A DNA stretch of 64,000 nucleotides from Heliocidaris erythrogramma (lineage: Eukaryota > Echinodermata > Echinoidea > Camarodonta > Echinometridae), in NCBI GenBank assembly GCA_025617745.1, contig CM046864.1, positions 30,545,162-30,609,161 of the forward strand, written 5' to 3'. Below, one piece after another: positions 7,480-42,915 of this stretch. The translations under genes and the position numbers were made by a program. Position 1 is the first letter of the stretch; each line of letters begins with the position of its first letter. A model generated the notes under the pieces. The model had not been told where the DNA came from. It saw only the letters and a list, made by a program, of their open reading frames with translations, and did not search any database.

Positions 7480-7800
7480 TCCACTTGCTGAACAATCCAG
7501 CTTGCGCACAAAGCTATGCCGACGACCAATTCTCAATTATGTCCCGGGCCAGAAGCTCAGCGCATTTACGCTTTCTGGAAGCCGCTTACATTCAATCGCA
7601 TGAACCTCTTCTGTGCAGACAAAAGGAGTTCGTCCAAGCTTTGCGATTGTTCTGAAATTACGGCGTCTAGGTTGCGTCCGGGTTTACCGAGTATAATATA
7701 GTTGATTTCAAGTAATTTGTTATATACCTGCGTGATAACCTGATGAGTGCAGGTCGAAAAGCTTCGTTATCGTGTCTCTTTTTCGTGCCATATAGTCATA
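7480..7800 (+). pseudogene. Penelope-like element 3' end (endonuclease C-terminus and UTR)
   Basis: A plus-strand frame near 7492-7665 reads NNPACAQSYADDQFS then HLRFLEAAYIQSHEPLL and KEFVQALRLF, the C-terminal tail of a PLE endonuclease. The same tail occurs on the minus strand near 31691-31860, so the two are one family. A short AT-rich 3' region follows and contains a hammerhead-like motif at 7734-7771. The 5' part of the element is missing. Confidence 0.7.
7734..7771 (+). ncRNA. Small hammerhead-ribozyme-like motif of PLE type
   Basis: Parse: stem I 5' strand GATAAC (7734-7739), core CTGATGA (7740-7746), stem II region GTGCAGGTC (7747-7755), core GAA (7756-7758), self-complementary stem III AAGCTT (7759-7764), cleavage-position C (7765), stem I 3' strand GTTATC (7766-7771). 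Stem I is six perfect pairs. Stem III is palindromic, as in the small PLE hammerheads reported to act as dimers. Stem II is weak: only its terminal G-C pairs clearly. Activity is inferred. Confidence 0.65.
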
Positions 7801-8850
7801 ATTATGTTTTCTTGCAACATATCTTTTCGAATGCATATATTTAACAAATGATTACAGATGTATAATTAATAATAGCATATAGTATTTTTTTTTCTTTTGT
7901 TTGCATGGCTCGCATCATTGGGTTACACAGGATCAGGTTTCGGCGGATTCAAGAGGAGTGAAACTGGTGCAACACTTTCCATCAATGCACTGGAAGAGTC
8001 CTTTTGCAGGTCCTAGCTGCATTATTTCATGATATACATGTAGATATACGGACAGGGCTAATATTCTTTGCATATGGTGCTCAAAGGATGGATTTGTGCT
8101 TTCACCTGATGGTTCTTTACCAGATTATAGAAGTTGGATTGCCAACTGAAGCTCATTCAGATATGTAATTGTAAATGGATGATGCCGCTGATTCAGGAAC
8201 CAGTACTTTGAAATCATTTCGATATCTTAATGAGAAAACTTTGTTACAAATTACAGTCCGATTTTTATTATTTTTTTCCTTTTATTTTCCAAAATGTTCA
8301 TTATAATACCTCACGTTATTGAAAGAAGGATATTTTTTTAAATAAGTAAATAATTTGTGTTATACATGTATTTCATAAATATGTATTTCTTTTAAGTTTC
8401 ATTTTTGTCAGCTCACTCAGCTATTTAGATGTCTATGAATGATGTTTGTATGTGTTGATTGAACCTTTTGAGATATTTTATAACTAAATCTATGGAAGTC
8501 AAATACATGTAATAGCGGGAATGTTTATTTGTCTCCAAACTTGATGAGGTGCAAATCTCTAGTCATTGTCAAACATTCACATTACAAAAAGTGAATTAGA
8601 TATAAATGCATAGAGTAAAATTGCAAGGCAGTACATGTTTAAATCATGATTGTAAAATGGAAATTTGCCATGAAAATGCATGTACCGTATGGAGGGGGGG
8701 GGGGGGGGGGGGGGGGGGACGGGGGACAACATATTATGCTTGAACATTTGCACTACATCATCTGGAGCCCATTATGTAAAGTTTAATATTCCTGTATGTG
8801 TTAATTATGGGAGCCTTGAAGTATGTATTTGTAGGAGAGAAATTAATATC
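7800..8850. other. AT-rich stretch, no secure gene; poly-G run
   Basis: No gene was recognised. A plus-strand frame at about 7933-8016 (GSGFGGFKRSETGATL) follows a pyrimidine tract and a TTACACAG acceptor-like site, so a small exon is possible but unsupported. A poly-G run lies at 8695-8719. Confidence 0.4.
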
Positions 8851-8930
8851 CTCATCTAGATCAAATAGCTTGGATTTGCAAGACATTTTATTTACCCATT
8901 TGACAAAGATTTTACTTGCCAGACATTTAT
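8845..8930. repeat. Short repeat unit shared with 10490-10575
   Basis: About 80 bp containing GATCAAATAGCTTGGAT and ACCCATTTGACA recurs in the same orientation at 10490-10575 with moderate divergence. On the minus strand both copies can encode a related peptide around KSKLFDLDEDI / ESKLFDLHENI, so it may derive from coding sequence or be chance reading of a repeat. Family not recognised. Confidence 0.55.
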
Positions 8931-9030
8931 TAATGTAGACATGTATTCTTGTTATTCTTGTTTTTGATGGTGCTACTTGTGCAATTATCATTTCTGTATA
9001 CATGTACATGTACCGGTACCCTTATTTTAA

Positions 9031-9617
9031 AGGGAAATCCAACCTTAATGGCAAGTTGCTCTGAAAGAAAGAGGAAAAATCAATGAAGCAGATTGGTAAA
9101 AGTTTGATTGAAATCGGACGAGCAATAAGAAAGTTATGAATTTTTGAAAGTTGTAATCACTATGCATAGCCTATGGGAATTTCATATTGGCCGAAGAAGT
9201 AATGTCCCTGTGATGTAGTTGCGGACAACTCCCCCATTCGCTCCAACACACAAAATTACTAACATTTCATTTTTTTCAAAATTTATTACTCAGTAGGATC
9301 TTTTTCTTTCATGGGGACCTTCAACAATATACTATCTCCAATATAATTTTGGGTACTGCCCCGATGGTAATGGCGTTTCGGAGAAAACCGCAAATTAATG
9401 ATACGTATGTGTACGACAAACTGGAGAGCAGTCCACAAGTATATCACAATCGACTCACCAAATTGCCAGTTTGAAATTCGCATAGATGTAGTGATCCCAT
9501 GTTTCAAACATCCATAACTCTCTTATTCCTTGTCCGATTTCTTTCAAACTTTCACCATCCTGTTTTTATTTTTATGCTTTCACACAAATCAGCTTATTAC
9601 CAAGGTTGGATTTCCCT
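9031..9617. mobile_element. TTAA-type MITE, 587 bp
   Basis: Left end AGGGAAATCCAACCTT after TTAA (9027-9030); right end is the complement AAGGTTGGATTTCCCT followed by TCAA (9618-9621), probably a mutated TTAA. The inner arms also match: AGTTTGATTGAAATCGGACG on the left against a CGATTTCTTTCAAACT-type block on the right. Piggybac/Kolobok-like non-autonomous element without coding capacity. Confidence 0.75.
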
Positions 9618-9717
9618 TCAATGTATGTCTTTACCGGATTGTAATACTTGTCAGGTACACATTCCAGCCAGTATCATGTAAATATAATACATACAAAAAG
9701 TCATGTAGTTTATAAAG

Positions 9718-10385
9718 TTAGTTAGTTATGTCGTCCGCCAGGACGCACCACATCAATTTTACACGTGTCCTCCATTCAACCCTATCTTCCATTAGCCTTC
9801 TCAATTCCCCAACGTTTACCATCCCAGTGTCCTCCATCAGGTTGTCAATATATGTTCTGCGTCTGCCTCGTCTTATTTTCCCTTCGGTTGGAAGCCAAAG
9901 TACCAGTTTGTTAGCCATTTCCTCATTGTGGCGAACACAGTGACCCGCGAGACGCATCCTCCTTTGCTGAACTTTGATCGAGATTTTAGGTAGATCTCCA
10001 TAGAGCTGATCATTTGTGAGATGACTCTTCCAGGACACATTAAGTGCTATCCGAAGTAGTCTTATGTAGCACCCGTCCAACTGCATATTCATCTTTTTGG
10101 TTAGAGTCCAAGTTTCAGAACCATATAAAAGTACTGACTCAACAGTAGCAGTAAAGAGTCTGATGTTGATTTTTCTTGAGAGAGAGGAGCTCCAAACTTG
10201 TGGCGGGCATTCCACGCAAATGCCTTTCTAGTGTTAATGTCACATTCAGAGCTTGCAGTCCATGCCCCAAGATATTTAAAGTTCTCCACTATTTTAAGGG
10301 CATCACCGTTTTTGACCTTAACTTTCACTGGGGAATTCTGATTAAAAATTTGCAGCTCTGTCTTTGTTTGCATTGCAGAGAAGAC
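9718..10385 (-). pseudogene. RTE-like LINE reverse transcriptase C-terminus (5'-truncated)
   Basis: Two overlapping minus-strand frames form one protein tail. The first has KIVENFKYLGAWTASSECDI, the second SVLLYGSETWTLTKKMNMQLDGCYIRLLRIA, then DQLYGDLPKISIKVQQRRMRLAGHCVRH. This post-catalytic region (YGSETWTLTKK, LDGCYxRLLR) is typical of RTE-clade retrotransposons. A frameshift lies near 10150-10200. The catalytic FADD region is absent because the copy is 5'-truncated near 10385, the usual result of incomplete reverse transcription. Confidence 0.8.
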
Positions 10386-10929
10386 CTACAGATGCAGCCT
10401 CTTGTTCTAGCCCAATTAAATTAGTTATAAAGAGTAAAGACAATATAGACTGAAATTCAGTGGGGAAATCATTAAATGAAAACCGTCCATAATATTCTCA
10501 TGCAGATCAAATAGCTTGGATTCGCAATACATTTTAGTTACCCATTTGACATAGATTTTCTTGAAAATCAATGGCGAAGTGTAAGGAAAATTATTATTGG
10601 GTAGGTTAACTCCCAATATCTTTTAGACTCGATATACATGTAATGTGCATGTATCAAATTTTATACTCCTGTAAAAGAGTATTAATTGCATATGTTATGT
10701 ATTATGTTCTATTGGCAAATACATGATACATCATGTGTTGTGGTTTTTTTCGTCAGATATATTTTATGTTGCATTTATCCTTCCTAGCATTGTTTTAGAA
10801 CTCACCAGATAGTTGCTGTGTTGTAGACATGCATAATGAAATTATAACTGGCTACAATGTATTTACCATATACACATCATCACCAGCAGTATCACACAAT
10901 TACTGCAGCACCACCACATGCTAGCTGAA

Positions 10930-11275: not shown

Positions 11276-11340
11276 ACATATTTTTGTAAGGGGTACCGTA
11301 CTGAAATAATGCCGGAAATGCAGCGGGGAATTACATGAAA

Positions 11341-12040: not shown

Positions 12041-12052
12041 CAAATTATAGTT

Positions 12053-14945: not shown

Positions 14946-15324
14946 TGACTGTATTGCTCTCCTCTGAAAATGAAAAAAAAAATAGTTCGGCACAGACAAA
15001 ACCTAAGTCGAGGGGGTTTTTATGGTGTTAATCGCTAAACTTTATGGTAAATAATTGTTTATATGATCTGACAGAATTTCTGGTAACTTTTGCAGACAAA
15101 ATCCTTCACTTCCAGTCAGACTATGCGTCAAAATAAAGTTCAGACCACACCAGGAAGCGTCAGGAACCCCAGAGCTTCCAGAGCCATTAAGAGGGCCACG
15201 CCGTAAGAGGACTTCGCGCTTCGCGCACATTATCGCCGGTGCTACATGAGCTATTCGGGCAAAAGCCTTCAGCCTCTCTAAAAATTGAGCCAATACGTCC
15301 ATGAATTATGTATATATATATATA

Positions 15325-16258
15325 ATGATATTTCATAACCGCGTGTTGGAAAAGCATGAAGAGAGAAACAATTAATGAATTCCAGAGAAGACATTGGTAA
15401 TGCATTGAATTCCAACTTTTATATTTATTTTCACCAAATTTTCGATCCTCACGGATCTTCCTCAGGGTAATGAACAAAGTGAAATATGTATGTGAAGCTC
15501 TGCTCAGAAAAAGTTGACAATGTAATATACCATGGTAACGCGCTTAGTTGCTAGGTAAAGTTTTGAGCGCTTATTTTTTAATTAGCGCAAAATACATAAA
15601 TTGTGACGTAATAATACAAGTTGACGTGTAGTCTTACATAGCGACACGCACGGTTGCTAGGTGAAAGTTTGAGCGCTTATTTGTCAAGGAGCGCAAATTC
15701 ATAAATAGTGACATAATAACAAACTGACATGGCAACACGCGCGGTAGTTAGCTCGAAGTTTGCGCTAAACCTAATGAGCGTAATAGCCATAAATTCAATT
15801 ATGACGCAATAATGTATAAAAAAAGAAGAATGGTGCATAAGAAGTAAGACACAAAAGTTAAAGACATGTATATATCGTTTAGCCGCGCAAAATACATCAA
15901 TCACATAACAACACGCGTGGTTGCTCGATCAAAATTTCTGTGCTAATTTTTACGAGCTCAATAGACGCAATAATATATGCAAATGAACAGTGCATAATAA
16001 ATAAAATATAAAACATCAAACATAGGCCTATAGATTTTTTTAGGTCATAACCGGTGAGCTCTAACAAACTGAGGCGTAATGAGGCATTATGATAATTACA
16101 TTTACTACTTAAAGTAACTATATTTCTCTAGCCATGACAGGTCTCTGTTGAGCCCAATCTGAAAACTCTTGCTTCGAATAATAGCGCGCAATTCAGCTAG
16201 TTTTCTCTCATCAGCGGATTTGTACCCGCCTCCGAAGAGGCAGATCTTAAGATCATTC
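15325..16258 (-). repeat. PLE 3' segment (pseudo-LTR), downstream copy
   Basis: Near-identical to 18947-19880 over 934 bp. It contains the last roughly 50 codons of the PLE ORF, an AT-rich UTR with CGCGCGGT/CTAGGTAAAG-type repeats, and a hammerhead-like motif at 15431-15470. Confidence 0.9.
15431..15470 (-). ncRNA. Small hammerhead-like motif in PLE repeat (copy 1)
   Basis: Minus strand: stem I TTACC, core CTGAGGA, one extra A, stem II GATCC-GTGA-GGATC (five perfect pairs), core GAA, palindromic stem III AATT, cleavage-position T, stem I partner GGTGA (one G-U pair). The extra A before stem II departs from the textbook core but recurs in several other copies in this window. Stem III alone is too short to fold in cis, as in the dimer-acting PLE hammerheads. 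Confidence 0.65.
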
Positions 16259-18945
16259 AGGGAATGGTCGGCTTGGCTGAAATGTTCGGCTACTGGGAAA
16301 CCAGTACGCCGTTGCCTGATGGTACATCTGTGGTTATTGAATCGCACTCTAAATCTAGTACCTGTTTCACCAATATAGGCTATTTCAGGGCATTTGTCGC
16401 AAAGAAAACAGTACAGAATGTTACTTGAATCACAGTTGTGATCGGGAGGATAGATCGTATAACCAGATGAGAGCCGTACGGAGTTTTCCGTTATTATGTG
16501 AGGGCAAATTTGACAGCGCGATTTGCCGCATGGCTTGTTACCTCTAGGTTGAGGTTTGCCAGGTAGCTGATTTCTCACCAGTAGTCTTTTCAGATTGGGA
16601 GGTTGCCTCTGTGCATGGAGGGGGGCCCTAGGCATGATTTTAGCAAGTTTTTCATCGGCCGTGATTGTGGGCCACTCTTTCTTGACTTTAAGGGCAAGTT
16701 GACGACATTTCGGGTGGTACGTGGAGACAAATGGGACTGCTACTTCTCCTTTGCTTTTTCTTTTTTGGACGAGAAGATTCTCTCTACTTTTTTGACTGAC
16801 CCTTTTCATGCATTTCTTGATCATGTTGATCGGATAACCACGTTCAATGAAATGCCTGCCAAGCTGCAATGCATCCGATTCGTAGGTAAGAGGGTCGGAT
16901 GTTATTCTTTTGTACCTCAATAGTTGGCTGTACACTATTGACTCCTTGATGTGCGTAGGATGGAATGAGTTATAATTGAGATAGGTGAAGGAGTCAGTCG
17001 GCTTAGTGTATAGCGAGGTTTGGAGTTTCTGCCCATTGGGGGAAAGAGTGACCGTGACGTCAAGGAAGTGGACTTTCTCTCGTGAACTCTCCATGGTGAA
17101 TTTGATGTTACCGTTGTGTGAATCAAACCTTTCATGAAAGGATTTGAGGTCATCGATATCATGCGGCCAGATCATGAAAATATCATCTATGTACCGGAGG
17201 TACAAACTGGGTTGAAGATGAGATTTCGAGAGAAAGTCCTCCTCCAACTCGGCCATGAAGATGTTTGCGTAAGCGGGAGCCATTTTTGTACCCATTGCAG
17301 TACCTTTGCTTTGAAGAAAGAATTCACCATCAAACTTGAAATAATTATGTTTGAGGATGAATTCTGCAAGTGTTGCTAAGTCATCAATTTCAGCATGAGA
17401 ATATTCCGAATGACGGCGCAAGAAGGATTGCAAAGCCTGGACACCTTCCTCATGAGGTATGTTGGTATATAAGCTTTTTATATCCATAGTCACAAGAGTG
17501 CATCTATTCGTAATTACGTTAGAGTTTATCTTGTTCAAGAAGTCTGTGGTATCTTTAACATAACTACTGATTTTAGGTAGGCATGTCTGAAGTTTTTTGT
17601 CGACATACTCTGACATACACTCCGTAAGGCATTTTACACTTGAAATAATGGGTCTGCCAGGAGGAATAATGTGGTGCTCTTTTGCTTTTGATACCACTTC
17701 TTGTGCGTCATTCTCATTACAGTCAGTCACATTAGCTATCAATTTAGGAAGTTTGTGAATTTTAGGAAGCATGTAAAATTCACTTACCCTGGGTACTGCT
17801 GGCACAAGGCTATGGCTTACACTTACATTACTCAGATTATCTATACAGTCCAGTGCTTGCTTGACGTAGTCCGTTGTGGGATCCGAATCAAGCCGTGTGT
17901 AGTAGTCCTCATCGGATAGCTGTCGGGTAGCCTCGGTGATGTAGTCTTCCTTGTCCTGGATAACAACGGCACCTCCTTTATCCGCCTGTTTGATTATGAT
18001 GTTGACGTTGTTTTGCAGGCTCTTTATGGCTCGGCATTGGCTAGGGTCCGGTTGGACAGTGCGGTGGTCGTCGAAGTCATGCAGGAAGTTGTCGAGATGA
18101 TGTTCTACACTAGAAGTGTACCTGTCGATAAAGGGATTCCTGCCTCCAGGTGGCGTCCATCGGGGCTTGGATGTAGATTTGTCTGTCCGTTCTTTGGTGT
18201 GCTTCTGCTGGCGCTGGTCAGACATGTGCTGGTCATTACGATCGCCGCTGTCATCCTTTGAGAAGAATTCTCGAAGTTTGACACGACGATTGAATGACTC
18301 AACGTCAAAGCATAGTTGTACCTTGTCAAGAGGTCTCGGAGGGCAGTAGGAGAGGCCCAAGTTGAGAGTGTTGACCTCATGCTGGGATGGTTCATATTGG
18401 GAGAGGTTCACGAGATTGCAGCTCTTAGATGATTGTGTCTTCTCATCAGGAGGCCTGGGGTCGGTATTATCGATCGGGCGTTTGGGGGATGACATACCTC
18501 GAAGAAGAGGAGACTCCAGAATGAGTTTATCCAGCTTACGCTCCTTCCTAGTCATGGAGTGTCGAAGTGTCTGGTGGTAATGCTGGTCAAGACCACGGAG
18601 GATGATTGTAGACTCAGGCTGGTCAGCATTTCCATCATCTTGGATTGATGATTTAAGGTTGCTAATCGCCACGTCCAGTCGTTGCTGGAATTGATGTTGT
18701 CGCTTATAGGATTCATGAAGGCAGAGGTTTCGAAGTCTCTGAGATGTACGGTGACAGATGTCGTCGGCAATCCTAGATTTGAAAGTATCCTTCAGAGGGT
18801 TCTTAATGTGGAGACCTTTGGGTATGATGTCGAGCTTCTTAGATTTAGTCAGAAAATATATATCAGATCTAGTCTGAGCGAGCTTCGTATACAGGCGTTC
18901 ACAAGTCCGGCGGGCGCGGAAGACTACTGCATTAAGTCCTGACAT
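16105..18945 (-). CDS. Penelope-like element protein: reverse transcriptase plus GIY-YIG endonuclease
   Basis: A 946-residue uninterrupted product. Residues 1-300 are the charged N-terminal region. The RT covers about 315-680, with ADKGGAVVI at 321-329, LPKIHKLP at 393-400, PPGRPIISS at 428-436, MDIKSLYTNIP (motif A, 487-497), GTAMGTKMAPAYANIFM (motif B, 548-564) and the catalytic YIDD at 585-588. A Cys-rich CGKSRCQIC segment at 806-814 precedes the GIY-YIG-type endonuclease: LYCFLCDKC 844-852, AYIGETGTRFRVRFNNH 856-872, then FPVAEHFSQADH. This is the full PLE layout, and PLEs prime reverse transcription at a nick made by this nuclease. The ATG at 18945 abuts the tandem repeat junction at 18947, so the native start could lie further upstream. 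The product could be active. Confidence 0.9.
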   Translation of the reverse strand: MSGLNAVVFRARRTCERLYTKLAQTRSDIYFLTKSKKLDIIPKGLHIKNPLKDTFKSRIADDICHRTSQRLRNLCLHESYKRQHQFQQRLDVAISNLKSSIQDDGNADQPESTIILRGLDQHYHQTLRHSMTRKERKLDKLILESPLLRGMSSPKRPIDNTDPRPPDEKTQSSKSCNLVNLSQYEPSQHEVNTLNLGLSYCPPRPLDKVQLCFDVESFNRRVKLREFFSKDDSGDRNDQHMSDQRQQKHTKERTDKSTSKPRWTPPGGRNPFIDRYTSSVEHHLDNFLHDFDDHRTVQPDPSQCRAIKSLQNNVNIIIKQADKGGAVVIQDKEDYITEATRQLSDEDYYTRLDSDPTTDYVKQALDCIDNLSNVSVSHSLVPAVPRVSEFYMLPKIHKLPKLIANVTDCNENDAQEVVSKAKEHHIIPPGRPIISSVKCLTECMSEYVDKKLQTCLPKISSYVKDTTDFLNKINSNVITNRCTLVTMDIKSLYTNIPHEEGVQALQSFLRRHSEYSHAEIDDLATLAEFILKHNYFKFDGEFFLQSKGTAMGTKMAPAYANIFMAELEEDFLSKSHLQPSLYLRYIDDIFMIWPHDIDDLKSFHERFDSHNGNIKFTMESSREKVHFLDVTVTLSPNGQKLQTSLYTKPTDSFTYLNYNSFHPTHIKESIVYSQLLRYKRITSDPLTYESDALQLGRHFIERGYPINMIKKCMKRVSQKSRENLLVQKRKSKGEVAVPFVSTYHPKCRQLALKVKKEWPTITADEKLAKIMPRAPLHAQRQPPNLKRLLVRNQLPGKPQPRGNKPCGKSRCQICPHIITENSVRLSSGYTIYPPDHNCDSSNILYCFLCDKCPEIAYIGETGTRFRVRFNNHRCTIRQRRTGFPVAEHFSQADHSLNDLKICLFGGGYKSADERKLAELRAIIRSKSFQIGLNRDLSWLEKYSYFK

Positions 18946-18946
18946 G

Positions 18947-19880
18947 ATGATATTTCATAACCGCGTGTTGGAAAAGCATGAAGAGAGAAACAATTAATGA
19001 ATTCCAGAGAAGACATTGGTAATGCATTGAATTCCAACTTTTATATTTATTTTCACCAAATTTTCGATCCTCACGGATCTTCCTCAGGGTAATGAACAAA
19101 GTGAAATATGTATGTGAAGCTCTGCTCAGAAAAAGTTGACAATGTAATATACCATGGTAACGCGCTTAGTTGCTAGGTAAAGTTTTGAGCGCTTATTTTT
19201 TTAATTAGCGCAAAATACATAAATTGTGACGTAATAATACAAGTTGACGTGTAGTCTTACATAGCGACACGCACGGTTGCTAGGTGAAAGTTTGAGCGCT
19301 TATTTGTCAAGGAGCGCAAATTCATAAATAGTGACATAATAACAAACTGACATGGCAACACGCGCGGTAGTTAGCTCGAAGTTTGCGCTAAACCTAATGA
19401 GCGTAATAGCCATAAATTCAATTATGACGCAATAATGTATAAAAAAGAAGAATGGTGCATAAGAAGTAAGACACAAAAGTTAAAGACATGTATATATCGT
19501 TTAGCCGCGCAAAATACATCAATCACATAACAACACGCGTGGTTGCTCGATCAAAATTTCTGTGCTAATTTTTACGAGCTCAATAGACGCAATAATATAT
19601 GCAAATGAACAGTGCATAATAAATAAAATATAAAACATCAAACATAGGCCTATAGATTTTTTTAGGTCATAACCGGTGAGCTCTAACAAACTGAGGCGTA
19701 ATGAGGCATTATGATAATTACATTTACTACTTAAAGTAACTATATTTCTCTAGCCATGACAGGTCTCTGTTGAGCCCAATCTGAAAACTCTTGCTTCGAA
19801 TAATAGCGCGCAATTCAGCTAGTTTTCTCTCATCAGCGGATTTGTACCCGCCTCCGAAGAGGCAGATCTTAAGATCATTC
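18947..19880 (-). repeat. PLE 3' segment (pseudo-LTR), upstream copy
   Basis: Direct repeat of 15325-16258, placed upstream of the ORF on the minus strand. It includes a truncated ORF tail (19725-19880) and a second hammerhead-like motif at 19053-19092. The junction at 18947 places this terminal segment directly against the ORF start, where a PLE promoter would be expected. Confidence 0.9.
19053..19092 (-). ncRNA. Small hammerhead-like motif in PLE repeat (copy 2)
   Basis: Identical parse to the motif at 15431-15470: TTACC, CTGAGGA, GATCC hairpin, GAA, AATT, T, GGTGA. Two such motifs in direct orientation flank the ORF, so a read-through transcript would contain a tandem pair. Confidence 0.65.
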
Positions 19881-19887
19881 GCTCAAT

Positions 19888-20082
19888 GAACTTTACCTAG
19901 CAACTAAGCGCGTTACCATGGTATATTACATTGTCAACTTTTTCTGAGCAGAGCTTCACATACATATTTCACTTTGTTCATTACCCTGAGGAAGATCCGT
20001 GAGGATCGAAAATTTGGTGAAAATAAATATAAAAGTTGGAATTCAATGCATTACCAATGTCTTCTCTGGAATTCATTAATTG

Positions 20083-20085
<3 letters not shown>
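19888..20085 (+). repeat. Inverted PLE terminal piece with hammerhead-like motif
   Basis: Complement of 15365-15560, starting in the TTTACCTAGCAACTAAGCG region and running to the TTCATTAATTG end. It carries a third copy of the hammerhead-like motif at 19981-20020, here on the plus strand. An inverted terminal piece next to a direct one is a hallmark of PLE insertions. A (CT)n tract follows at 20081-20109. Confidence 0.85.
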
Positions 20086-20116
<31 letters not shown>

Positions 20117-20165
20117 GGAGTGTAAGGATGCTCAACTTATACATGACCGACGGTGTTCCAGATAT

Positions 20166-20335
20166 AGATATGCGTAAACAGAAGAAAAGTCTAGGAACTG
20201 TACAAGGACGTAGCTGGTATACATACACGTTTTAATCGAGCTTTCGGCTATTTAGGCCTTCTTCAGGATCTGAAGATAAGTCATAAAACAAAAACAAAAA
20301 CTTTTCTTCTGTTTACGCATATATATATATATATA
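20166..20335. mobile_element. Short IR-bounded PLE-type remnant with hammerhead-like motif
   Basis: ATATGCGTAAACAGAAGAAA near 20170 and its complement TTTCTTCTGTTTACGCATAT near 20310-20330 bound a 170-bp segment. Inside, on the minus strand (20234-20270), is GATC, CTGAAGA, one extra A, a GGC/GCC stem II, GAA, palindromic AGCT, cleavage-position C, then GATT, giving four stem I pairs (one G-U). It has no coding part. It may be a terminal-repeat relic of a second PLE family. Confidence 0.6.
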
Positions 20336-22549: not shown

Positions 22550-22985
22550 ATCGTGGTACAATAAGAGTATAAGTTGAGCTGTTGTCACACGAAGGAGCAA
22601 ACGAGGGTTGTGACGTTTCGACCGCTAACTGCTAGTCTTCGTCAGGCAATGTGGACAATCTTTTTTTTAAGAGTATGAGTTGATCTGTTGTCACACGATG
22701 GGGCAAACGTAAGCTACGTTCCGAGGGAGCCGGAACCGCCGCGCTGCTATTGGTCCGTGAAACCGACCAATCAGAAGCCGAGGACTGAGCGATCGGTGAG
22801 CGAGATGCGGACGTCGGGGAAAATCCCGTCGGTGCTGCTGGCGGGCTACTAGCCTCTTGTCGAGGCCCTGGCGCTGTTGAAATCCTTGGCGATATGGAGG
22901 CAAAATTTCTGGCGAGCGAAGCGAGCCAGCAAAACCGAGGCGCTTGCGCGGGGGCCTCTTGACACCTGATCTGAATTTATTTTGT
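22550..22985 (-). repeat. PLE-type promoter/terminal repeat, inverted copy
   Basis: Complement of 23790-24140 with some rearrangement. It includes the hammerhead-like motif (22608-22650, minus) and the CCAAT-rich GC segment with GCGCTGCTATTGGTCCGTG. The TATA segment of the other copy is missing here. A short internal duplication of GTTGTCACACGA..GCAAAC occurs near 22575 and 22690. Confidence 0.7.
22608..22650 (-). ncRNA. Hammerhead-like motif (CTGACGA family), inverted copy
   Basis: Minus strand: TTGC, CTGACGA, extra A, a GAC/GTC stem II with internal GC/GC pairs, GAA, palindromic ACGT, cleavage-position C, then ACAA. Stem I has one mismatch at its first pair compared with the better-preserved copy at 24019-24060. 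Confidence 0.55.
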
Positions 22986-23103: not shown

Positions 23104-23388
23104 ATGGCGTTCAACGTTTCTTCCACGACGAGTGATGACGATATTTGTAAGAGCTTAGAATATGCCGCTAGAATGTTGAAGATTGACGGATTCAAAGATT
23201 TGCAAGTTGATGCAATCAAATCTGCACTTAAAGGACAAGATGTTTTTGTGAATCTGCCTACTGGCTATGGAAAAAGTGTTATTTTTCACGCGCTACCGCT
23301 CTGTGCTGATTACCTCCGTGGGCCAGGGATTGAGAGTGAGATCGAGACTGCTAGCTGCTTTGAATTCGCGAGCTATGCTAGGGCCTAG
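23104..23388 (+). CDS. RecQ-like DNA helicase, N-terminal fragment
   Basis: Starts at an ATG in good context after a GC-richer 5' region. MAFNVSSTTSDDDIC leads into FKDLQVDAIKSALKGQDVFVNLPTGYGKSVIFHALPLCADYL. This is the Q-motif-like FxxLQxDAI segment and the Walker A box PTGYGKS of superfamily 2 RecQ helicases, which unwind DNA with ATP. Similarity stops near residue 75; the remaining residues to the stop read through unrelated sequence, so the true exon probably ends around 23325. No DEAH box or other exons were found nearby. It lies between two inverted PLE promoter repeats inside the 8.2-kb element. It may be a captured exon or a pseudogene copy. Confidence 0.6.
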   Translation: MAFNVSSTTSDDDICKSLEYAARMLKIDGFKDLQVDAIKSALKGQDVFVNLPTGYGKSVIFHALPLCADYLRGPGIESEIETASCFEFASYARA

Positions 23389-23920: not shown

Positions 23921-23994
23921 ATTGGTCGGTTTCACGGACCAATAGCAGCGCGGCGGTTCTGGCTCCCTCGGAACGTAGCTTACGCTATAAAAGG
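23921..23994 (+). promoter_or_regulatory. Putative Pol II promoter: CCAAT pair and TATA box
   Basis: ATTGG (23921) and CCAAT (23939) sit about 45-60 bp upstream of TATAAAAGG (23986-23994). The TATA box is repeated at 25746-25754 in the related copy. Transcription would start near 24020, close to the hammerhead-like motif. Confidence 0.5.
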
Positions 23995-24018: not shown

Positions 24019-24060
24019 TTGCCTGACGAAGACTAGCAGTTAGCGGTCGAAACGTCGCAA
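24019..24060 (+). ncRNA. Hammerhead-like motif (CTGACGA family), best copy
   Basis: TTGC (24019-24022), core CTGACGA (24023-24029), extra A, stem II closed by GAC/GTC with an inner GC/GC pair, core GAA (24049-24051), palindromic ACGT (24052-24055), cleavage-position C (24056), GCAA (24057-24060). Stem I is four perfect pairs. A third copy near 25783 has CTAACGA and is probably dead. Confidence 0.6.
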
Positions 24061-25358: not shown

Positions 25359-25833
25359 GAATTCTGCAAGCGCCTTTTATAGCGTAAGCTGCGTTCCCAG
25401 CGCGCCGGAACTGCCGCGCTGCTATTGGTCCGTGAAACCGACCAATCAGAAGCCGCGGACTGTGCGATCGGTGGACGGGATGCGGACTTCGGGGAAAACC
25501 CCGTCGGTGCTACTGGCGGGCGGGCTACTGGCTACTGGAGGGCGAAATGCGGACGTCGGGCGGAGGGCAACGGTAGGGGGCGCATGTCGGTGGATGGTGG
25601 GGAGCCATTCCTCCGGGATGTCAATTATTGATATTATTGGGGTGTAAAGGGATTTGGATAGCTTCTTTAACACGCCGTGTGTACCAGTGCTTATCCCGGG
25701 GGGGGGGGGGGGGGGGGGGGAGGGGGGGGGGGGGGTGCTGTGCGCTATAAAAGGCGCTTGCAGCGGCGATTGTCCACATTGCCTAACGAAGACTAACAGT
25801 TAGCGGGTCGAAACGTCGTAACCCTCGTTTGCT

Positions 25834-28656: not shown

Positions 28657-28683
28657 CAAATTACTCCGTTAGACACAAAAGGT

Positions 28684-28717
28684 TCAATATTTCGCCTTTA
28701 AGGCTTCTTAAGGAAAT
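28684..28717 (-). ncRNA. Degenerate hammerhead-like motif in PLE repeat
   Basis: Minus strand: TTTC-like stem I, CTTAAGA where CTGAAGA is expected, GCC/GGC stem II, GAA, palindromic ATAT, T, GAA. The G-to-T change in the core should inactivate it. The sister copy at 42851-42885 differs at another core position. Confidence 0.5.
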
Positions 28718-28804
28718 GATACCAAGTACCAAAAAATGCTCGAAGGATGTAGTGCATAGCGCGTAATTATTGTCAAAACAACAAGCGTAAATAAACAACA
28801 GAGT

Positions 28805-29215
28805 CAAGGCGCGAGAAAGAGAGAGAGGAAAGGAGAAAGAGGGAGAGAGAGAGGGGAAATGAGAGAGACAGAGAGAGGGAGACAAACACACACAGATGAA
28901 GAAAGATAAAGAAAGCAAAGGATAGGAAGAGAGAGAAAAAGAGAGAGAGGGAAGTAAAGAAGGAAGAGAAAAATAAGGAGAGAGACACAGGGGGAAAACA
29001 AAGGTGGGAAGAAAGAGGAAAGAGGGTTAGAAAACCGAAAAGGAAGACAAAAAGGAGAAAAGAAAAAGAAGAAGAAGAAAAGAAAGAAAAAAAATAGAAA
29101 AGGCGGGGAGAGAAGAAAGAAAACGAAAGAAGAGAGAGAGAGAGAGAAAAAAAAAAAGAAACAAGGGAAGAGAACAAAAGCAAAGTACAAAAAGGAAGGA
29201 GAAAGAAAGAAGCAT
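28805..29215. repeat. GA-rich tract of a PLE terminal repeat
   Basis: About 400 bp of purine-rich sequence made of GAAAG, GAGAGAGA and GGAAGAGA runs. It is matched, as the complementary CT-rich strand, at 42405-42770. Conservation of this tract between two insertions shows it is part of the PLE 3' region rather than a local expansion. Long open frames across it are artefacts of composition. Confidence 0.8.
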
Positions 29216-29222
29216 TACAAAA

Positions 29223-29730
29223 TTACGAAGAAGGAAATGAACGGAAACTGGCATTGATACCATGAGGTTGGAGCGTACTAAGCTGAAAGATGATCCTTTC
29301 TTCCTGGATCTTCCTTTCCTCATCTGTTACCCAGTACTGCTTAAGGACACACACTTTCAGATCGTTGATCGTGTGATTAGCAAGACTGAAGTGTTGGACA
29401 ACAGGGAGACCACTAGCGTTGAGGCGAATCGAACGAAGATGCTCCGTCACTCGATCAGCCAGTCTCCGTTTCGTCTCCCCTACGTACAACTTTTTGCAAG
29501 AAATGCAAGTTATGCAATAGATAATGTTTGTAGAAGTGCAGGAGAAAGTTTTGGTCACATTCCATTATTCCATTATTCCATTAGGTCCAGTGATGGTGGT
29601 GGCATCCGTTACATGAGAACAGGTCTTGCATCCAGGTCGACGACAGGGAACTGTACCAAGTGGTGATCGCGTATCCGTATCAACTTGTTCCCGAGCAGGC
29701 TGTAGAGTAGTTTTCACAAGAATTCTTCTT
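29223..29730 (-). pseudogene. PLE GIY-YIG-type endonuclease domain (degenerate copy)
   Basis: The product reads IIYCITCISCKKLYVGETKRRLADRVTEHL then GLPVVQHFSLANHTINDLKV and ERKIQEERIIFQLSTLQPHG. It matches the layout of the intact PLE endonuclease at 16105-18945: Cys pair, YVGET, Arg, and the HF(S)xANH box. Upstream frames carry KTTLQPAREQVDTD. A small expansion of ATGGAATA units near 29565-29580 adds an in-frame stop. Non-functional as it stands. Confidence 0.8.
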
Positions 29731-29731
29731 A

Positions 29732-30283
29732 GAGCCCTTTCACACTCACTTCGTTAGAGCGCTCTAACTAAGAACGGTTCCTCTGGAGCGGTTCCCAGGT
29801 GAGTGTGAATGCTCAAGTGGTCCAGGAAGCGTACTTCTGGAGCGCTCCAGAAGACCACCTCGCGAGGTGGTCTTGAGGAACGGTTCCTCGTTAGAGCGCT
29901 CCAACGTGTCAGTGTGAAAGCAAAGCGATCCTAAAGCGTACTTCAACCGGAAGTGAGTGTGTGTGGCGCGGGAAATCAATGGGTGATTTGATACATTGAG
30001 CGAGCGATTTGATACCTTACTTTACGCTACGCAGGCAATCACCGGTATAGCAGACGACAGACCGACCGGGCAGCGGCACAGCGCATTATACGGTTTGAAA
30101 TTCCGCGCGAAAAATTTGAGCCGCTGATCTGAGCTGCCATAGCAACAAGACCGCTTTGACTCGTTGAGCGATTCGAGACATAAAAAATGCGGTGAGTGTG
30201 AAAGCAAACGAAGCGTTCTTCAAGAACCGTTCCTCTGGAGCGCTCTAACTTGGAGCGGTCCAGAAGTGAGTGTGAAAGGCCTC
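29732..30283. mobile_element. Harbinger-like MITE, 552 bp (TTA duplication)
   Basis: Ends GAGCCCTTTCACACTCACTTC-type (left) and the complement of GAGGCCTTTCACACTCACTTC (right), flanked by TTA at 29729-29731 and 30284-30286. Interior blocks TTAGAGCGCTCTAAC and GAACGGTTCCTC recur in both orientations. The 3-bp TTA duplication fits PIF/Harbinger. It is inserted in the PLE linker. Confidence 0.85.
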
Positions 30284-31574: not shown

Positions 31575-31610
31575 GTGACGAAGCTTTTCGACCTGCACCC
31601 ATCGGGTCAC
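31575..31610 (-). ncRNA. Hammerhead-like motif (AAGCTT family), inverted-dimer left arm
   Basis: Minus strand: GTGAC, core CCGATGG (two changes from CTGATGA), GTGCAGGTC, GAA, palindromic AAGCTT, C, GTCAC. Stem I keeps five perfect pairs although its sequence differs from the 7734 copy (GATAAC/GTTATC), which looks like covariation. The right arm at 32155-32180 keeps GTGCAGGTC-GAA-AAGCTTC but lost part of the first core. Confidence 0.55.
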
Positions 31611-31860
31611 AACCCAGGAATGAGAGAATACAAGAAAATACAAAAGTCAAGGAAGTGTGTGTACAGCGTCCCAGATATGATCCGGACACGCTAAAATAAT
31701 CGAAGCGCTTGTACAAACTCCTTTTGTAGGCACAATAGCGGATCTCTCGACTGAATGAACAACGGTTCTAAGAAGCGAATATGTTGAAAGCTGCGTGCTC
31801 GGGCAACAATAGTGAACTGAGCCGGGTTATACGCCTTGGAACAAGCCGGACTATTCGCAA

Positions 31861-32157
31861 GTGCTGACCAATAGCAGAGTCGCTGTGACTGCGGCATTGA
31901 ACATTAGCGACGCGATATTAAGCATAGTGTCGCGCTGTTACTTTGCCGTGGCTACGCGTGTCGTGTTCTCTACTAATAGAATGCTACCCGCAGTTCGCAA
32001 GGATGTACTGCCTTCCCCCCAAATGAGCAATGTCTTTTATCAGTATCATTGTCGGTGTGAAGCCGTCTACGTTGGCCGTACATCTCAGCGTCTAGCGGAC
32101 CGCATTAAACAGCACGTACCCTCCGTGGTACGACAGACATCAGCTGGTAGCCGCTGA
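31861..32157 (+). pseudogene. PLE endonuclease fragment (YVGRTSQRL)
   Basis: The frame enters PLE similarity at about ATRVVFSTNRMLPAVRKDVL and continues through MSNVFYQYHCRCEAVYVGRTS, RLADRIKQHVPSVVR. The Cys-x-Cys, YVGRT and downstream Arg-His positions match GIY-YIG-type PLE nucleases. It ends at a stop just before the hammerhead-like tail, so most of the nuclease C-terminus is deleted. Confidence 0.7.
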
Positions 32158-32205
32158 GTGCAGGTCGAAAAGCTTCGTCACTATGAATTGTTAAATGTTA
32201 TCTAT

Positions 32206-32231
<26 letters not shown>

Positions 32232-32242
<11 letters not shown>

Positions 32243-32420
32243 GAAAAATAAAGTTCACAACATCATATAGAATACACACACAAAAGCATGTTTTTATTAA
32301 AATTCACAAGCGCTTTCGATTTAATCTCTTCAGGTGAATGAGCCATATAGTTTTGACATGCTTTTATATACACGTATAGTACAGTAATATGCAAATGGAC
32401 AATGTGTGTGGTATTGTCCA
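32232..32420 (-). repeat. Terminal-repeat relic of another PLE family
   Basis: Lies between TA runs and contains TTTTTATTAAAATTCACAAG, the hammerhead-like motif and a CATGCTTTTATATACACG segment. No coding part is seen. Confidence 0.5.
32302..32339 (-). ncRNA. Small hammerhead-like motif, complete by inspection
   Basis: Minus strand: stem I ATTCAC, core CTGAAGA, stem II GAT-TAA-ATC, core GAA, palindromic stem III AGCGCT, cleavage-position T, stem I partner GTGAAT. Stem I has six perfect pairs and there is no extra nucleotide in the core. This is the cleanest of the set. Confidence 0.7.
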
Positions 32421-39078: not shown

Positions 39079-39354
39079 CTGAGCTTCAGAAGCAATATGC
39101 ACAGACATTTAATTTTGCACACGGCCGCAACCTCGGGCAAAAGAACTGTCGACGTCGACTGCTGGGGGCTGCTCTATTAGTCCCATCTATAGATGTACGT
39201 GTAGAGTACCGATAGAGTGCGTCGCATCAAAGCTTATCTCATCAATACTTGAAAGAAAATCAATTCTACATCACATCGCGCACCGTAGATCTAAATCAAG
39301 GTTTAATTTCACATGAGAGAGTACGCCAAAAGAGGATTTTTCTCCACAGTTTCC

Positions 39355-39835
39355 GCAAAATGGGAGGAAAACATTGCTGTTATTGTTACGGAACGTGCAA
39401 CAGCGATTCACGATATTTTGGGAAAAGGCACGAAATGATGGGGTTTTTTTTTCATCCCTTTCCCAAAACCAAAGATAAATATGGACAAATGTACAACCTA
39501 GATAAAAATATGTGGTCGAAAGGCCTTTGGAATAGACCGAATCACCAAGGATACCTAGATCTGTTCCAAGCATTTTATGGGAGGAAACAGCCCGATCATC
39601 GAACATCCCCTCCCCATTCCAGCTGCAGTCACCGAGCTTGAGCGACAAATTGCCACAAAACCTCTGCGGTCTCCGCCCGAAAGCGGTTGTTTGAAACTCC
39701 ACCTCTGCCTCCGAGTCCAAAGAGACACAGGCAGTTCAAATCGAAGAAATTCAAGACATGCAAGATGTTCCCCGAATGTTAATTCCCCTGGATGTTCCTG
39801 TCTACAATTTTGTGGATCGTATAAGTAATAAATGT
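39355..39835 (+). pseudogene. THAP-type zinc-finger gene fragment (frameshifted)
   Basis: MGGKHCCYC..GTCNSDSRY and FFFHPFPKTK match the start of a THAP C2CH DNA-binding domain. After a frameshift near 39480 another frame gives WIKICGRKAFGIDRITKD, a TAG stop, then ICSKHFMGGNSP, which supplies the second Cys-His pair, and EHPLPIPAAV. A short duplication in HCCYCYGTC also disturbs the first Cys spacing. THAP domains occur in transcription regulators and in P-element-type transposases. The breaks suggest a decayed copy. Confidence 0.6.
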
Positions 39836-39839
39836 GTAT

Positions 39840-40305
39840 AAATCTACCCCCCCCCCCCCCCGACAGAAGGAAGCATGAGTCATTGTTCTTATTGTCCCAT
39901 GCTTAATAACTTTTCAGAACTTTTTTATTTTTACTGAAAGTAGGTAGTTTGTACTTAAAATTTTGAGGCAATAGATGAGTACAAGTGTGGGTGAGGGGGG
40001 TGGGGTGTCTATCGCATATAGGCCTACAAGTAGTTATTCATCATACTTTATTTGTGTCTATCGCATGTACAAGTAGTTATTCATCATACTTTCTTATTTG
40101 TATCCTTTGTTATTACAGACTTTAGTGGGACAGTGTGGGAAACTCAACTTTCTTTCCATCAATACTGTACACGTAACTTTGTTACACATATTTTGAAGCT
40201 ATAGCATTTCTTATTGGGAGATGAAATAATAAACAGTGTGATTACATGACATCATCACAGACATCCTCAAATGATTTATAACATTTGAGTTTTTTCCTGT
40301 CATAA
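39840..40305. other. No gene recognised
   Basis: A poly-C run at 39847-39862, a G-rich patch near 39990-40010, and a local duplication of TATCGCAT..ACAAGTAGTTATTCATCATACTTT near 40010-40090. No coding signal. Confidence 0.5.
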
Positions 40306-40615
40306 TCAAATACGGTAGTTGAAAATATCGAATAATCCAAACTCAGGAATGTCTGAGAAGTCTCTCGTATATCCTGTCAGTATCGTTGGGTCCGGGCATC
40401 CGGCTCGCGAGAGTTTCTCCCGCAACGTACCGGCGGTATCTACCTGGGTGAGATCGGTGCCCACGGAAGTCACCGACAGCCGTCGCAAGTTTGACAAGTT
40501 TTTCCTTATTATACCCGCTCGTACTCACACCTCTTTGTCTCAAGAAGTCTGTCAAATCTCTGACTGTCCAATCCTTCACTGACTTCCTTGACGATGAACT
40601 GGAAGTCGATGCCAT
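40306..40615 (-). pseudogene. SAP-like domain protein, N-terminal fragment (one frameshift)
   Basis: The product starts MASTSSSSSRKSVKDWTVRD and continues LTDFLRQRGVSTSGYNKEKL, a SAP-like helix-turn-helix (WTVxDLTxFLRxRGV..SGYxKxxL). A frameshift near 40500 is needed to continue into LREKLSRAGCPDPTILTGYT and RDFSDIPEFGLFDIFNY. I associate this arrangement with multi-copy invertebrate proteins that carry SWIM or YqaJ-type domains further on, but no such domain is present here. Either a decayed copy or a real first exon with a sequence error. Confidence 0.55.
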
Positions 40616-40739
40616 TGTAAGAAATTATGACATAGTCACTATCGTCGATAACAGCTAGGGAGAGACGCGCATTGACTTTGCATGGAGATCGGGCAAAATC
40701 CAAGATGGCGATCGGTCAAAGCTTGCCCGAGTTAGTAAC

Positions 40740-41235
40740 AGTAACTAGGAAGTAGGGGGTGATGACGTCATCGCGTAAACCGCCCTATTTATAGTCTTAC
40801 GTACATGCGAGATTTTATTTGTTTCGTATTCAAAATGTCTACAATGGAGCTACAAAATTAAATTCAACATGGATTTGATTCATTCAAATATATATTCAAT
40901 ATTCACTGCGGTTTTTAAACTAATTTAAAGAAATAATGTCAAAATCTATTTTGGATTAAACTTATAATAAATTGTAAAGCCTTGAATTTAGACTATAACT
41001 TAATCGGCCACGATTTGCATTCAGCTTGATTGACATTTGCAATAAGCTAATCAGCGGAGCTTTGACAATCGTATAGGCGGAGCCCGACGGTGAGAGTTCC
41101 CCCTGAAATTCGGGGGAGATGGCAGGTTTGACTGGACTGTATTGAGGATCGACAAATTTGTGTAAGTCACTCGCCCTCAACGTCCGCTTGTTCTGCTTGC
41201 TGCGTGGATTATTCAATACAGTCCAGTAGGTGGAC
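40740..41235. other. Upstream region; small inverted repeat
   Basis: Mostly AT-rich. GACTGGACTGTATTGA near 41130 and its complement TCAATACAGTCCAGT near 41212-41226 may bound a roughly 100-bp MITE that cuts the PLE to its right. No gene. Confidence 0.4.
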
Positions 41236-42352
41236 TAGGGTGATATGTGAAGACCATATGGGCACTCGGGCAGCATTTTCCTTCTCTTTGGGCTGTAGCA
41301 ACGCTTCGTGCTGGGTCTGGGGGACAATCTTCTGCTTTGCTTCTTCGATAATTTCAGTAGGGTATCCCCGCCTGTATCAACCATTTCGTTGATACGGCAT
41401 TTGTAGTCCTCGTCAGTGCTACATAGTCTGCGAAGAAGCGTGAACTGGGATCTGGGGATAAATCGCTTACACGAAGGTGGATGAGACGAGCTGTAGTTGA
41501 GGAAACAATGGGCATCTGTTGGTTTGTAGTGAACCCCAGTTCTAATGCTGGTCCCATCAACAGTGAGTTCTACTTCCAAGAAAGCTATGGAAGTGGAAGA
41601 AGTGGCGATGCCTAGATAGTCATCTATGTAACGTAAGAGAAGGAGAGGCTTGGTTCCGTTGAAGGTAGATAAGATCTTACTCTCCATACAGTCAGACCCA
41701 ACTCCTTAATACCGAGCACAGGTATATACTCCGAAAACGGCGTATAGAACAAGACGAATATAGAGCCCTCATCGTTCAGTGCGAGGCAGTGTGTATAAAA
41801 GGCATGGGGGAATCGTGCAGTGTCGACCTGCTGTTGATAATATATTTTTCAAAAAAAATGCTGCGGATATATTTATTTCAAATATTTGTCATATGAAATT
41901 CACTTCATATGACGAATCATTCAAGGATTTTGAAGATAATTGACACGCAGCATTATTTTTAAGAATATGTATATCGTTGGCAGGTTGACTTTGCAAGATT
42001 TTTTACATGCCTTTTGTGCACACTGTCTCATACTGAACGATGAGGGCTCTATATTCATCTTGTTATATACGCCGTTTTCGGAGTATATACCTGTGCTCGG
42101 TATTACGGAGTTGGGTCTGACTGCCATATAGCCCATAAATAGACAGGCATACGAAGGGCCCATTTTAGTTCCCATAGCGACTCCCTGTCTTTGCAGATAG
42201 CATCTTCCGTCAAACTGGAAAGATGACAAGTTGAGAACCAGTTCGGTTAGGCGTAGCACGGTCCTGTCATTGGGCCTATCAGCTGAGGGGTTTGCAAGTA
42301 AGAAATGCTGGATAGCCTTCAAGCCCTTGTCGCTTGGTATGTTAGTATACAA
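41235..42352 (-). pseudogene. PLE reverse transcriptase, split by a 436-bp MITE
   Basis: Minus strand from 42352: YTNIPSDKGLKAIQHFL (motif A region), FDGRCYLQRQGVAMGTKMGP and SYACLFMGYM (motif B), interruption, then ESKILSTFNG, RYIDDYLGIA (catalytic YIDD), FLEVELTVDGTSIR and HYKPTDAHCFLNYSSSHP. A later frame ends HMVFTYHP, which continues as EVLKVAHVM in the 28658-31000 copy. Excising 41689-42124 with one CCATA copy restores GYMESK in frame. The N-terminus and endonuclease are absent. Confidence 0.85.
41689..42124. mobile_element. 436-bp long-arm MITE (5-bp CCATA duplication)
   Basis: Ends CAGTCAGACCCAACTC and its complement GAGTTGGGTCTGACTG. The arms are complementary for about 160 bp each, with CCGAGCACAGGTATATACTC near the ends. 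CCATA is duplicated at 41684-41688 and 42125-42129. The short unpaired centre is AT-rich. Superfamily unassigned: a 5-bp duplication with CAGT ends does not match hAT (8 bp). Confidence 0.85.
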
Positions 42353-42915
42353 TGCCGTTCATTTCCTTCTTCGTAATTTTGTAATGCTTCTTTCTATCTC
42401 CTTCCTTTTTGTACTTTGCTTTTGTTCTCTTCCCTTTTTTTCTTTTCTCTCTCTCTCTCTCTTTCTTCTTTCGTTTCTTTTCTTCTCTCCCCTCCTTTTT
42501 CTATTTTTTCTTGCTTTTCTTCTTCTTCTTTTTCTTTTCTCCTTTTTGTCTTCCTTTTCTGTTTTCTAACCCTCTATCCTCTTTCTTCCCACATTTTGTC
42601 CCCCTGTGTCTCTCTCCTTATTTTTCTCTTCCTCCTTTACTTTTTCTCTCTCTTCCTATCCTTTGCTTTCTTTATCTTTCGTCATCACTGTGTGTGTGTG
42701 TGTGTCTCCCTCTCTCTCTCTCTCTTTCTCCTTTCCTCTTTCTCTCTCTCTCTTTCTCACGCCTTGACTCCGTTTATTTACGCTTGTTCTTTTGACAATA
42801 ATTACGCGCTATGCACTACATCCTTGGTGCATTTTTTGTACTTGGTATCATTTCCCGAAGAAGCCTTATAGGCGAAATATTGAACCTTTTGTGTCTAACG
42901 GAGTAATTTATTCTG
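42353..42915 (+). repeat. PLE terminal repeat joined head-on to the RT copy
   Basis: The plus strand starts with the last endonuclease codons (RSFPSS then stop near 42363-42384), then a CT-rich tract (42405-42770), then TTGACAATAATTACGCGC, the hammerhead-like motif and TGTGTCTAACGGAGTAATTT. It is the complement of 29250-28658. Facing orientation to the minus-strand RT is a typical PLE inverted junction. (GT)n, (CT)n and (TA)n runs follow at 42915-42990. Confidence 0.85.
42851..42885 (+). ncRNA. Hammerhead-like motif (ATAT family)
   Basis: TTTC, core CCGAAGA (one change from CTGAAGA), extra A, stem II GCC-TTATA-GGC, core GAA, palindromic ATAT, cleavage-position T, GAA. Stem I is three pairs. 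The sister copy at 28684-28717 has the normal C-T but lost the G, so the family consensus would be intact. Confidence 0.55.

Follow-up and report, generated by a model that had tools for sequence, protein, structure and literature searches.

Small hammerhead motifs, predicted to self-cut, in probable remnants of six or seven retrotransposon families within 64 kb of Heliocidaris erythrogramma DNA

Do several repeats of unrelated sequence, lying side by side in one stretch of an echinoid genome, carry the same small ribozyme, and what kind of element do they come from? The stretch in question comprises 64,000 nt of the Heliocidaris erythrogramma assembly GCA_025617745.1 (contig CM046864.1, positions 30,545,162 to 30,609,161, forward strand; referred to as the window, with position 1 at its first letter). 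An initial annotation made from the letters alone had listed 11 sites in six repeat families of the Penelope-like element (PLE) type, which were said to share a hammerhead core, a short stem II hairpin and a palindromic stem III. We conclude, with a probability of about 0.85, that the motifs represent hammerhead ribozymes of the minimal kind that belong to several families of PLEs, for which cleavage and action as dimers are predicted from their structure. The window probably holds the remnants of six or seven retrotransposon families with such a motif, designated F1 to F7 in the following.

All 11 sites were present where they had been reported, and the list was extended by a further F3 copy (25779–25821), a 5'-truncated F6 copy near position 32158 and a probable seventh family, F7. 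The common core was confirmed for 8 of the 11 sites, which contain exact CTGANGA and GAA elements, but is mutated in the other three (F5 at 28683 and 42852, F6 at 31575); accordingly, F1, F2, F3, F4 and F6 each have at least one copy with an exact core, and F5 has none. An additional A between the core and stem II, also part of the initial annotation, was seen in F1, F2, F3 and F5 and is absent from F4 and F6, and the hairpin proposed for all families is missing in F6.

The F1 motif consists of stem I TTACC/GGTGA, a 5-bp stem II and stem III AATT, and occurs in three copies of identical sequence at 15431–15470 and 19053–19092 on the minus strand and at 19981–20020 on the plus strand. F2 (20234–20270, minus strand) shows stem I GATC/GATT, a 3-bp stem II and stem III AGCT, and F3 contains stem I TTGC/GCAA, a 4-bp stem II and stem III ACGT. 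The F3 copy at 24019–24060 (plus strand) is intact, the one at 22608–22649 (minus strand) has lost the innermost pair of stem I, and the third at 25779–25821 (plus strand) carries the altered core CTAACGA. F4 (32302–32339, minus strand) combines stem I ATTCAC/GTGAAT with a 3-bp stem II and stem III AGCGCT. The two copies of F5, with stem I TTC/GAA, a 3-bp stem II and stem III ATAT, have differently mutated cores, CTTAAGA at 28683–28715 (minus strand) and CCGAAGA at 42852–42884 (plus strand). F6 is hammerhead-like, with stem III AAGCTT and stem I GATAAC/GTTATC or GTGAC/GTCAC, and at the place of stem II it contains only the sequence TGCAGGT closed by a single G-C pair. Its copy at 7734–7771 (plus strand) has 6–10 pairs in stem I, the copy at 31575–31610 (minus strand) has the core CCGATGG and a stem I altered on both sides, and the truncated copy at 32158–32210 (plus strand) starts within the core. 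The probable family F7 (61285–61328, plus strand) has a 6-bp stem I (ATCAGC/GCTGAT), a UUCG-capped stem II (TGC-TTCG-GCA, on a T.T mismatch) and, as stem III, the near-palindrome ACTG-A-CAGT. The four possible 4-nt palindromes beginning with A and ending with T are found once each in F1, F2, F3 and F5, which would happen by chance in about 9% of cases (4!/4^4, calculated by hand), and this distribution was not used as an argument.

To enumerate such motifs, we required CTGANGA, 7–21 nt, GAA, a palindrome of 4 or 6 nt beginning with A and ending with T, and a base other than G, without any condition on stems I and II; the chance background was derived from Markov-1 windows (60 for the search with the palindrome and 50 for the search without it). 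The window contains eight sites with an exact core and palindrome, three of F1, two of F3 and one each of F2, F4 and F6, and all except F3 at 22608 have at least four consecutive pairs in stem I. The 60 Markov-1 windows yielded 19 sites (0.32 per window), none of them with a stem I of at least four pairs, and even with one core mismatch permitted, stem I was present in only 6 of 364 sites. The combination of core, palindrome and stem I therefore lies far above expectation, and the hammerhead motifs of the window are very unlikely to be due to chance. When the palindrome was not required, ten exact-core sites with a stem I of at least four pairs were obtained against a background of 1.96 per window; seven of these are palindromic, and one of the remaining three is F7. 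If one core mismatch was allowed in addition, the search gave 56 rows vs. 24.84 in the background for stem I of at least five pairs, with several rows per site, and 12 rows vs. 5.3 for stem I of at least four and stem II of at least three pairs; the rows outside the listed families look like background.

The preserved pairing despite changed sequence, which had been put forward as an argument for function, was borne out across F1 to F5. In an alignment of one sequence each of these families, scored at stem I and the first three stem II pairs, 93.9% of the cells were paired, compared to a shuffled mean of 64.5%, and the covariation score of 0.829 (0.217 after shuffling) was reached by none of 500 shuffles. 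Sliding the partners by 1–3 columns reduced the score to at most 0.186, and the alignment contains ten further pair types, a number reached by 4 of 500 shuffles. Because F1 to F4 had been enumerated without a stem I criterion, selection does not explain their stem I; F5 was entered from the initial listing. Compared to minimal type I hammerheads, F1 to F5 thus show covariation of both stems, but F6 deviates in stem II.

Two covariance models were used, R1 built from this alignment and R2 trained only on F2, F4 and both F5 copies, whose E-values are to be taken as rough. The best match of R1 outside its training families was F6 at 7736–7769 (E 0.063). R2, from which whole families had been left out, retrieved as its top non-training matches the intact F3 copy at 24019 (E 0.0014) and then the three F1 copies (E 0.0044), followed by F3 at 25779 (E 0.024) and 22608 (E 0.31), and its remaining matches start at E 0.43. 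The sites at 19053, 19981, 20234 and 32302 were obtained by enumeration as well as with covariance models. A match of both models at 50236 (E 0.81 with R1 and 0.43 with R2) was rejected after reading its sequence.

We also looked for pairing of the stem II loop with upstream sequence at eight sites. The TGCAGGT of F6 is complementary to an ACCTGC directly before stem I (7727–7754), and the resulting 6 bp were matched by only 7 of 5000 shuffles. The F6 copy at 31575 preserves four of these pairs without a shift in register (1239 of 5000 shuffles), and the values were 292 for F7, 814 for F1 and more than 4200 for the other four sites. Because only F6 at 7734 stands out, a pseudoknot in place of its stem II is only a suggestion.

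The element around the F1 motifs is an intact, recently inserted PLE. Its open reading frame (ORF; 16105–18954, minus strand) comprises 949 aa from stop to stop with an ATG at 18945, and codes for a reverse transcriptase (RT; RVT_1, E 3.6e-14) and a C-terminal GIY-YIG region. The latter was left unmatched by Pfam and is assigned solely through its homology to the GIY-YIG region of F5 (tblastn E 6e-22). The ORF is accompanied by two pseudo-long terminal repeats (pLTRs) on the minus strand, at 15322–16258 (3') and 18944–19880 (5'), which are 99.68% identical over 938 aligned columns; the near-identity of the repeats, with only three differences of which two are homopolymer indels, indicates a recent insertion. 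Each pLTR contains one hammerhead, and the third lies within an inverted copy of the 3' end on the 5' side of the element (19880–20091, plus strand, 98.6% identical to 15360–15569), which continues into (TC)n rather than (AT)n. The two 3' ends of F1, at 15322 and at the equivalent of 15360, are about 38 bp apart. F1 thus shows several attributes of a canonical PLE, namely RT followed by GIY-YIG in one ORF, pLTRs, a partial tandem arrangement corresponding to 1.26 turns of a 3622-nt unit, and an inverted tail, and the predicted cut is located about 112 nt before the ATG. No relatives of the F1 protein were found in viral_contigs (2 pattern matches), genome_contigs (14 pattern matches), phages or PDB sequences, and an AlphaFold single-sequence model was of poor quality, with a mean predicted local distance difference test (pLDDT) value of 35.5.

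Judged by its sequence, F5 is a decayed PLE. Its GIY-YIG region (29268–29732, minus strand, E 6e-22 to F1) is interrupted by a single stop codon within the aligned portion, and the part at 29268–29558 is recognised by PF01541 with 24.7 bits at a cut-off of 22.6. The region is located upstream of the hammerhead at 28683, and GIY-YIG, pLTR and ribozyme follow in this order on one strand (28658–29732). Interrupted RT pieces with homology to the F1 ORF are present at 41235–42358 (minus strand), adjoining an inverted 3'-end copy at 42355–42909 which contains the second F5 hammerhead. A palindrome-like element of 435 bp (41689–42123, 79% inverted to itself) breaks up this RT sequence.

F6 is attached to the end of a protein, which comprises 65 aa and the stop codon in the first copy (7458–7655, plus strand, 79 nt before stem I) and shows 64% identity (E 2e-21) to 31694–31861, the second copy being located at 31691–31861 (minus strand), where 81 nt separate the stop from stem I. 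In the 45 codons common to both, differences between the copies affect 14 first, 9 second and 27 third positions, and 31 of the 45 letters, stop included, are conserved, which indicates a coding sequence under constraint. The protein terminates in FVQALRLF before the stop; peptide words from it were absent from the papers searched, and an F6 pattern gave no match in viral_contigs. A tblastn search of the window showed clear relatives of the F1 ORF only in F1 and F5, and those of the F6 end were confined to F6. The designation as PLE-type therefore applies to F1 and F5 with their attached RT or GIY-YIG sequences, F6 contributes a protein end, and F2, F3 and F4 lack recognised coding sequence; for F2, F3, F4, F6 and F7, we infer a PLE origin.

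The position of the ribozymes close to the element ends bears on the stage of the element's life at which they could act. We placed the 3' ends by the loss of similarity between copies and related them to the predicted cut. All placeable ends lie beyond it, by about 114 and 76 nt in F1, about 85 and 18 nt in F3, about 28 nt in F5 and about 28 and 55 nt in F6, and none in this range of 18–114 nt coincides with the cut; the 18-nt end of F3 may be a later break, and the placements for F2, F4 and F7 are suggestive only. Reverse transcription therefore most likely began on RNA that was uncut there, religated or circularised, and the ends argue against inserted templates having been terminated by the ribozyme. 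Simple (AT)n arrays follow the cut at distances of 112 nt in F1, 69 nt in F4, 68 nt in F5, 57 nt in F6 and 93 nt in F7, where the array is 43 nt long. Thus, 5 of 13 sites from 5 of the 7 families have such an array within 130 nt downstream, compared to a random mean of 0.26, and none of 20000 random placements reached five; one of the 13 sites has an array on the wrong side. This test did not cover the 5'-truncated copy of F6 (32158), which continues into an array at 32211, and no ribozyme core was found beside another (AT)n array at 60152. One intact recent element together with several other families provides material for studying when the ribozyme acts relative to insertion, which may be before it, while it takes place or afterwards.

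The ends beyond the cut would also fit a different function, in which the PLE protein binds the retained motif as a signal near the start of reverse transcription and cleavage is lost or incidental. Passages of PMC11167929 on a PLE of Anolis point in the same direction, since ribozyme mutants inserted normally in vitro, RNA-seq showed no cut ends, and the RNA was cut only with the protein present. A pure binding stem, however, would not need the letters of the catalytic core, which five families preserve exactly in one or more copies, and we therefore consider this explanation unlikely, although it deserves to be taken seriously.

If the motifs are active hammerheads, they would probably work in pairs. 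In F1 and in F5 at 28.7 kb, the protein end is followed, in this order, by the pLTR, the hammerhead, a short downstream stretch and the 3' end, and two hammerhead copies could be supplied by both pLTRs of one transcript or by two transcripts. The copies would pair via their palindromic stems III and trade strands of stem I. Each core would then be assembled from both copies, with the predicted cut on the 3' side of the base that follows the palindrome. Cutting might take place after the start of reverse transcription or serve to release unit-length RNA. A circular RNA would account for the 1.26 turns of F1, and a tandem genomic donor may do so equally well. In a tandem transcript, the dimer fold is fully nested; its energy was computed for eight sequences, ignoring tertiary contacts and protein. 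The minimum free energy structure of the F1 monomer consists exactly of stems I and II (−11.2 kcal/mol). The F7 dimer (−23.1 kcal/mol) lies within 0.4 kcal/mol of the cofold minimum of −23.5 kcal/mol, and F4 (−12.5 vs. −16.1 kcal/mol) comes closer than most.

A TATAAAA sequence is present 33 nt before stem I of F3 (23986–23992, plus strand) and likewise in the copy at 25779 (at 25746), and another one 29 nt before stem I of F4 (32362–32368, minus strand); transcription from these sites would begin at the edge of the ribozyme. By eye, the F3 TATAAAA is preceded by CCAAT/ATTGG boxes in a GC-rich stretch. The presence of TATAAA at −25 to −38 in two of seven families corresponds to P ~0.004 in a post hoc test chosen after looking, to P values of 0.011 to 0.041 with wider or looser settings, and to 1.4e-5 to 1e-4 with the stricter pattern TATAAAAG[GC]. 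On this basis, the hammerhead may be part of a short terminal redundancy between the starts of transcription and reverse transcription, with one copy at each transcript end and an end-to-end handshake between them, a proposal we regard as tentative and rather doubtful. The lack of any TATAAA within 80 nt of F1, F2, F5, F6, F7 and the remaining F3 copy speaks against its generality. If true, the ribozyme would become active only when a complete transcript brings its two ends together, so that cutting, and possibly also circularisation, would depend on full length, and the differing palindromes and stem I sequences would keep the handshakes of co-resident families apart.

Several results weigh against the assignment of all motifs to PLE hammerheads. 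Rfam 15, proposed as a check in the initial annotation, gave nothing at the gathering score for the window and for 331 bases around F1 and F2, and no hammerhead family appeared even at E ≤ 10. F6 and F7 are not among the 14 matches of R2 in the window, and R1 found neither F7 nor F6 at 31575 there. The number of pairs changed on both sides in the F1 to F5 alignment, 5 of 7, was matched by 12 of 500 shuffles. No (AT)n array is close to 8 of the 13 sites (F1 in the 5' pLTR and the inverted copy, F2, all F3 copies, one F5 and one F6). For the dimer folds of F1, F2, F3, F5 and F6, the computed energy exceeds that of the predicted cofold minimum by 5.8–17.1 kcal/mol, and F6 as a monomer favours an alternative hairpin which hides the core. 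The F6 protein end presumably resembles the terminus of a PLE GIY-YIG protein, but has no match in Pfam, NCBIfam, PDB sequences or F1. Finally, the 900 nt upstream of F2, F3, F4 and F7 contain nothing recognised as PLE coding sequence.

For F2, F4 and F7, this last observation would also be expected if they were retrozymes, small non-autonomous circular-RNA elements moved by PLE enzymes, instead of truncated PLEs, and PLE machinery has indeed been proposed as the mover of retrozymes (passages of PMC7761336). F2 in particular forms a short unit between inverted arms at 20162–20190 (plus strand) and 20300–20328 (minus strand), which are 97% identical over 29 nt with 23 nt exact; inverted arms of at least 20 nt occurred at none of 400 random places. 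This arrangement of F2 between inverted arms is at the same time a shortened F1 layout. Metazoan retrozymes, as passages of PMC7229834 and PMC7761336 describe them, are tandem repeats of about 150–450 bp, mostly with canonical loop contacts, but F2, F4 and F7 do not form tandem arrays in the window and their motifs are minimal. Non-coding tandem repeats of that size were not seen, the nearest case being one F3 copy with a partial repeat of about 105 nt recognised by eye, and we consider a retrozyme nature of the three families improbable.

The F3 copy concerned is that at 22608, where about 40 nt of its own downstream sequence are repeated at the place of the TATA sequence (22660–22715), followed by A8. 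Beside the F3 copies, the start of a DEAD-box-helicase-like frame is found at 23104–23385 (plus strand; PF00270, 26.2 bits at a cut-off of 26).

That only one or two families such as F1 and F5 are real and the others reflect coincidence on top of shared descent is very improbable: F2, F4 and F7 are single-copy here and Rfam is silent, but only 0.32 core and palindrome sites are expected per window with stem I in 0 of 19, a model trained without F1 and F3 recovers both, and F4 is only 69 nt away from an (AT)n array.

Elsewhere in the window, two stretches of 280 bp (43054–43333 and 43613–43892) are 100% identical in inverted orientation, which probably reflects a very recent event. The clearest host-like gene seen is an ORF of 295 aa at 55335–56222 (minus strand) with a full Sulfotransfer_2 domain (E 5e-56), and a 190-bp unit is repeated in tandem in 3.3 copies at 56442–57058. 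The PLEs, the microsatellites and the Sulfotransfer_2 ORF give the window a eukaryotic, probably animal, character.

Minimal type I hammerheads of PLEs have reportedly been described by Cervera & de la Pena in 2014 and by Lunse, Weinberg & Breaker in 2017. The families of the window share with them the core, a very short self-complementary stem III, the position in pLTRs and the expected action as dimers, but differ in that several lie side by side, that F6 lacks the stem II hairpin and that four families contain the extra A. The wording "extra a" does not occur in the passages of PMC7229834 covered, in a literature search otherwise not aimed at the extra A or at forms lacking stem II. Passages of PMC6155905, PMC7761336 and PMC7229834 already report minimal PLE hammerheads, their likely action as dimers and the presence of many families per genome, and we therefore place F1 and F5 in this known class, to which F2, F3, F4, F6 and F7 probably belong as well. 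The occurrence of several unrelated versions together, which the initial annotation had regarded as unusual, has a precedent at the genome scale in the coral Acropora millepora, for which passages of PMC7229834 report 16 families that together comprise more than 6000 type I hammerheads of the minimal or the canonical form.

Metazoan retrozymes resemble the window families in their type I hammerheads, weak stem III and, in some cases, dimer action, but their tandem non-coding units of 150–450 bp and canonical loop contacts are not seen for F2, F4, F6 and F7 (compared with passages of PMC7229834 and PMC7761336). The terminons of rotifers, according to passages of PMC6431247, are likewise PLE-like RT elements with a hammerhead beside the 3' end; they end in telomeric repeats, whereas the DNA next to the placeable ends in the window is (AT)n, (TC)n or of another kind. 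A GIY-YIG region, present in F5 and assigned by homology in F1, also sets these elements apart from terminons. Like F1, the element Poseidon PAc of Anolis carolinensis has pLTRs, an ORF for RT and GIY-YIG and a hammerhead just upstream of the RT start, and it shares with the window elements a tail of 30–40 bp and AT-rich targets, although its cut is located 26 bp inside the ORF and that of F1 about 112 nt before the ATG (passages of PMC11167929). The same passages attribute the optional tail of 30–40 bp to two adjacent starts of reverse transcription, and the offset of about 38 bp between the two 3' ends of F1 is of the same size.

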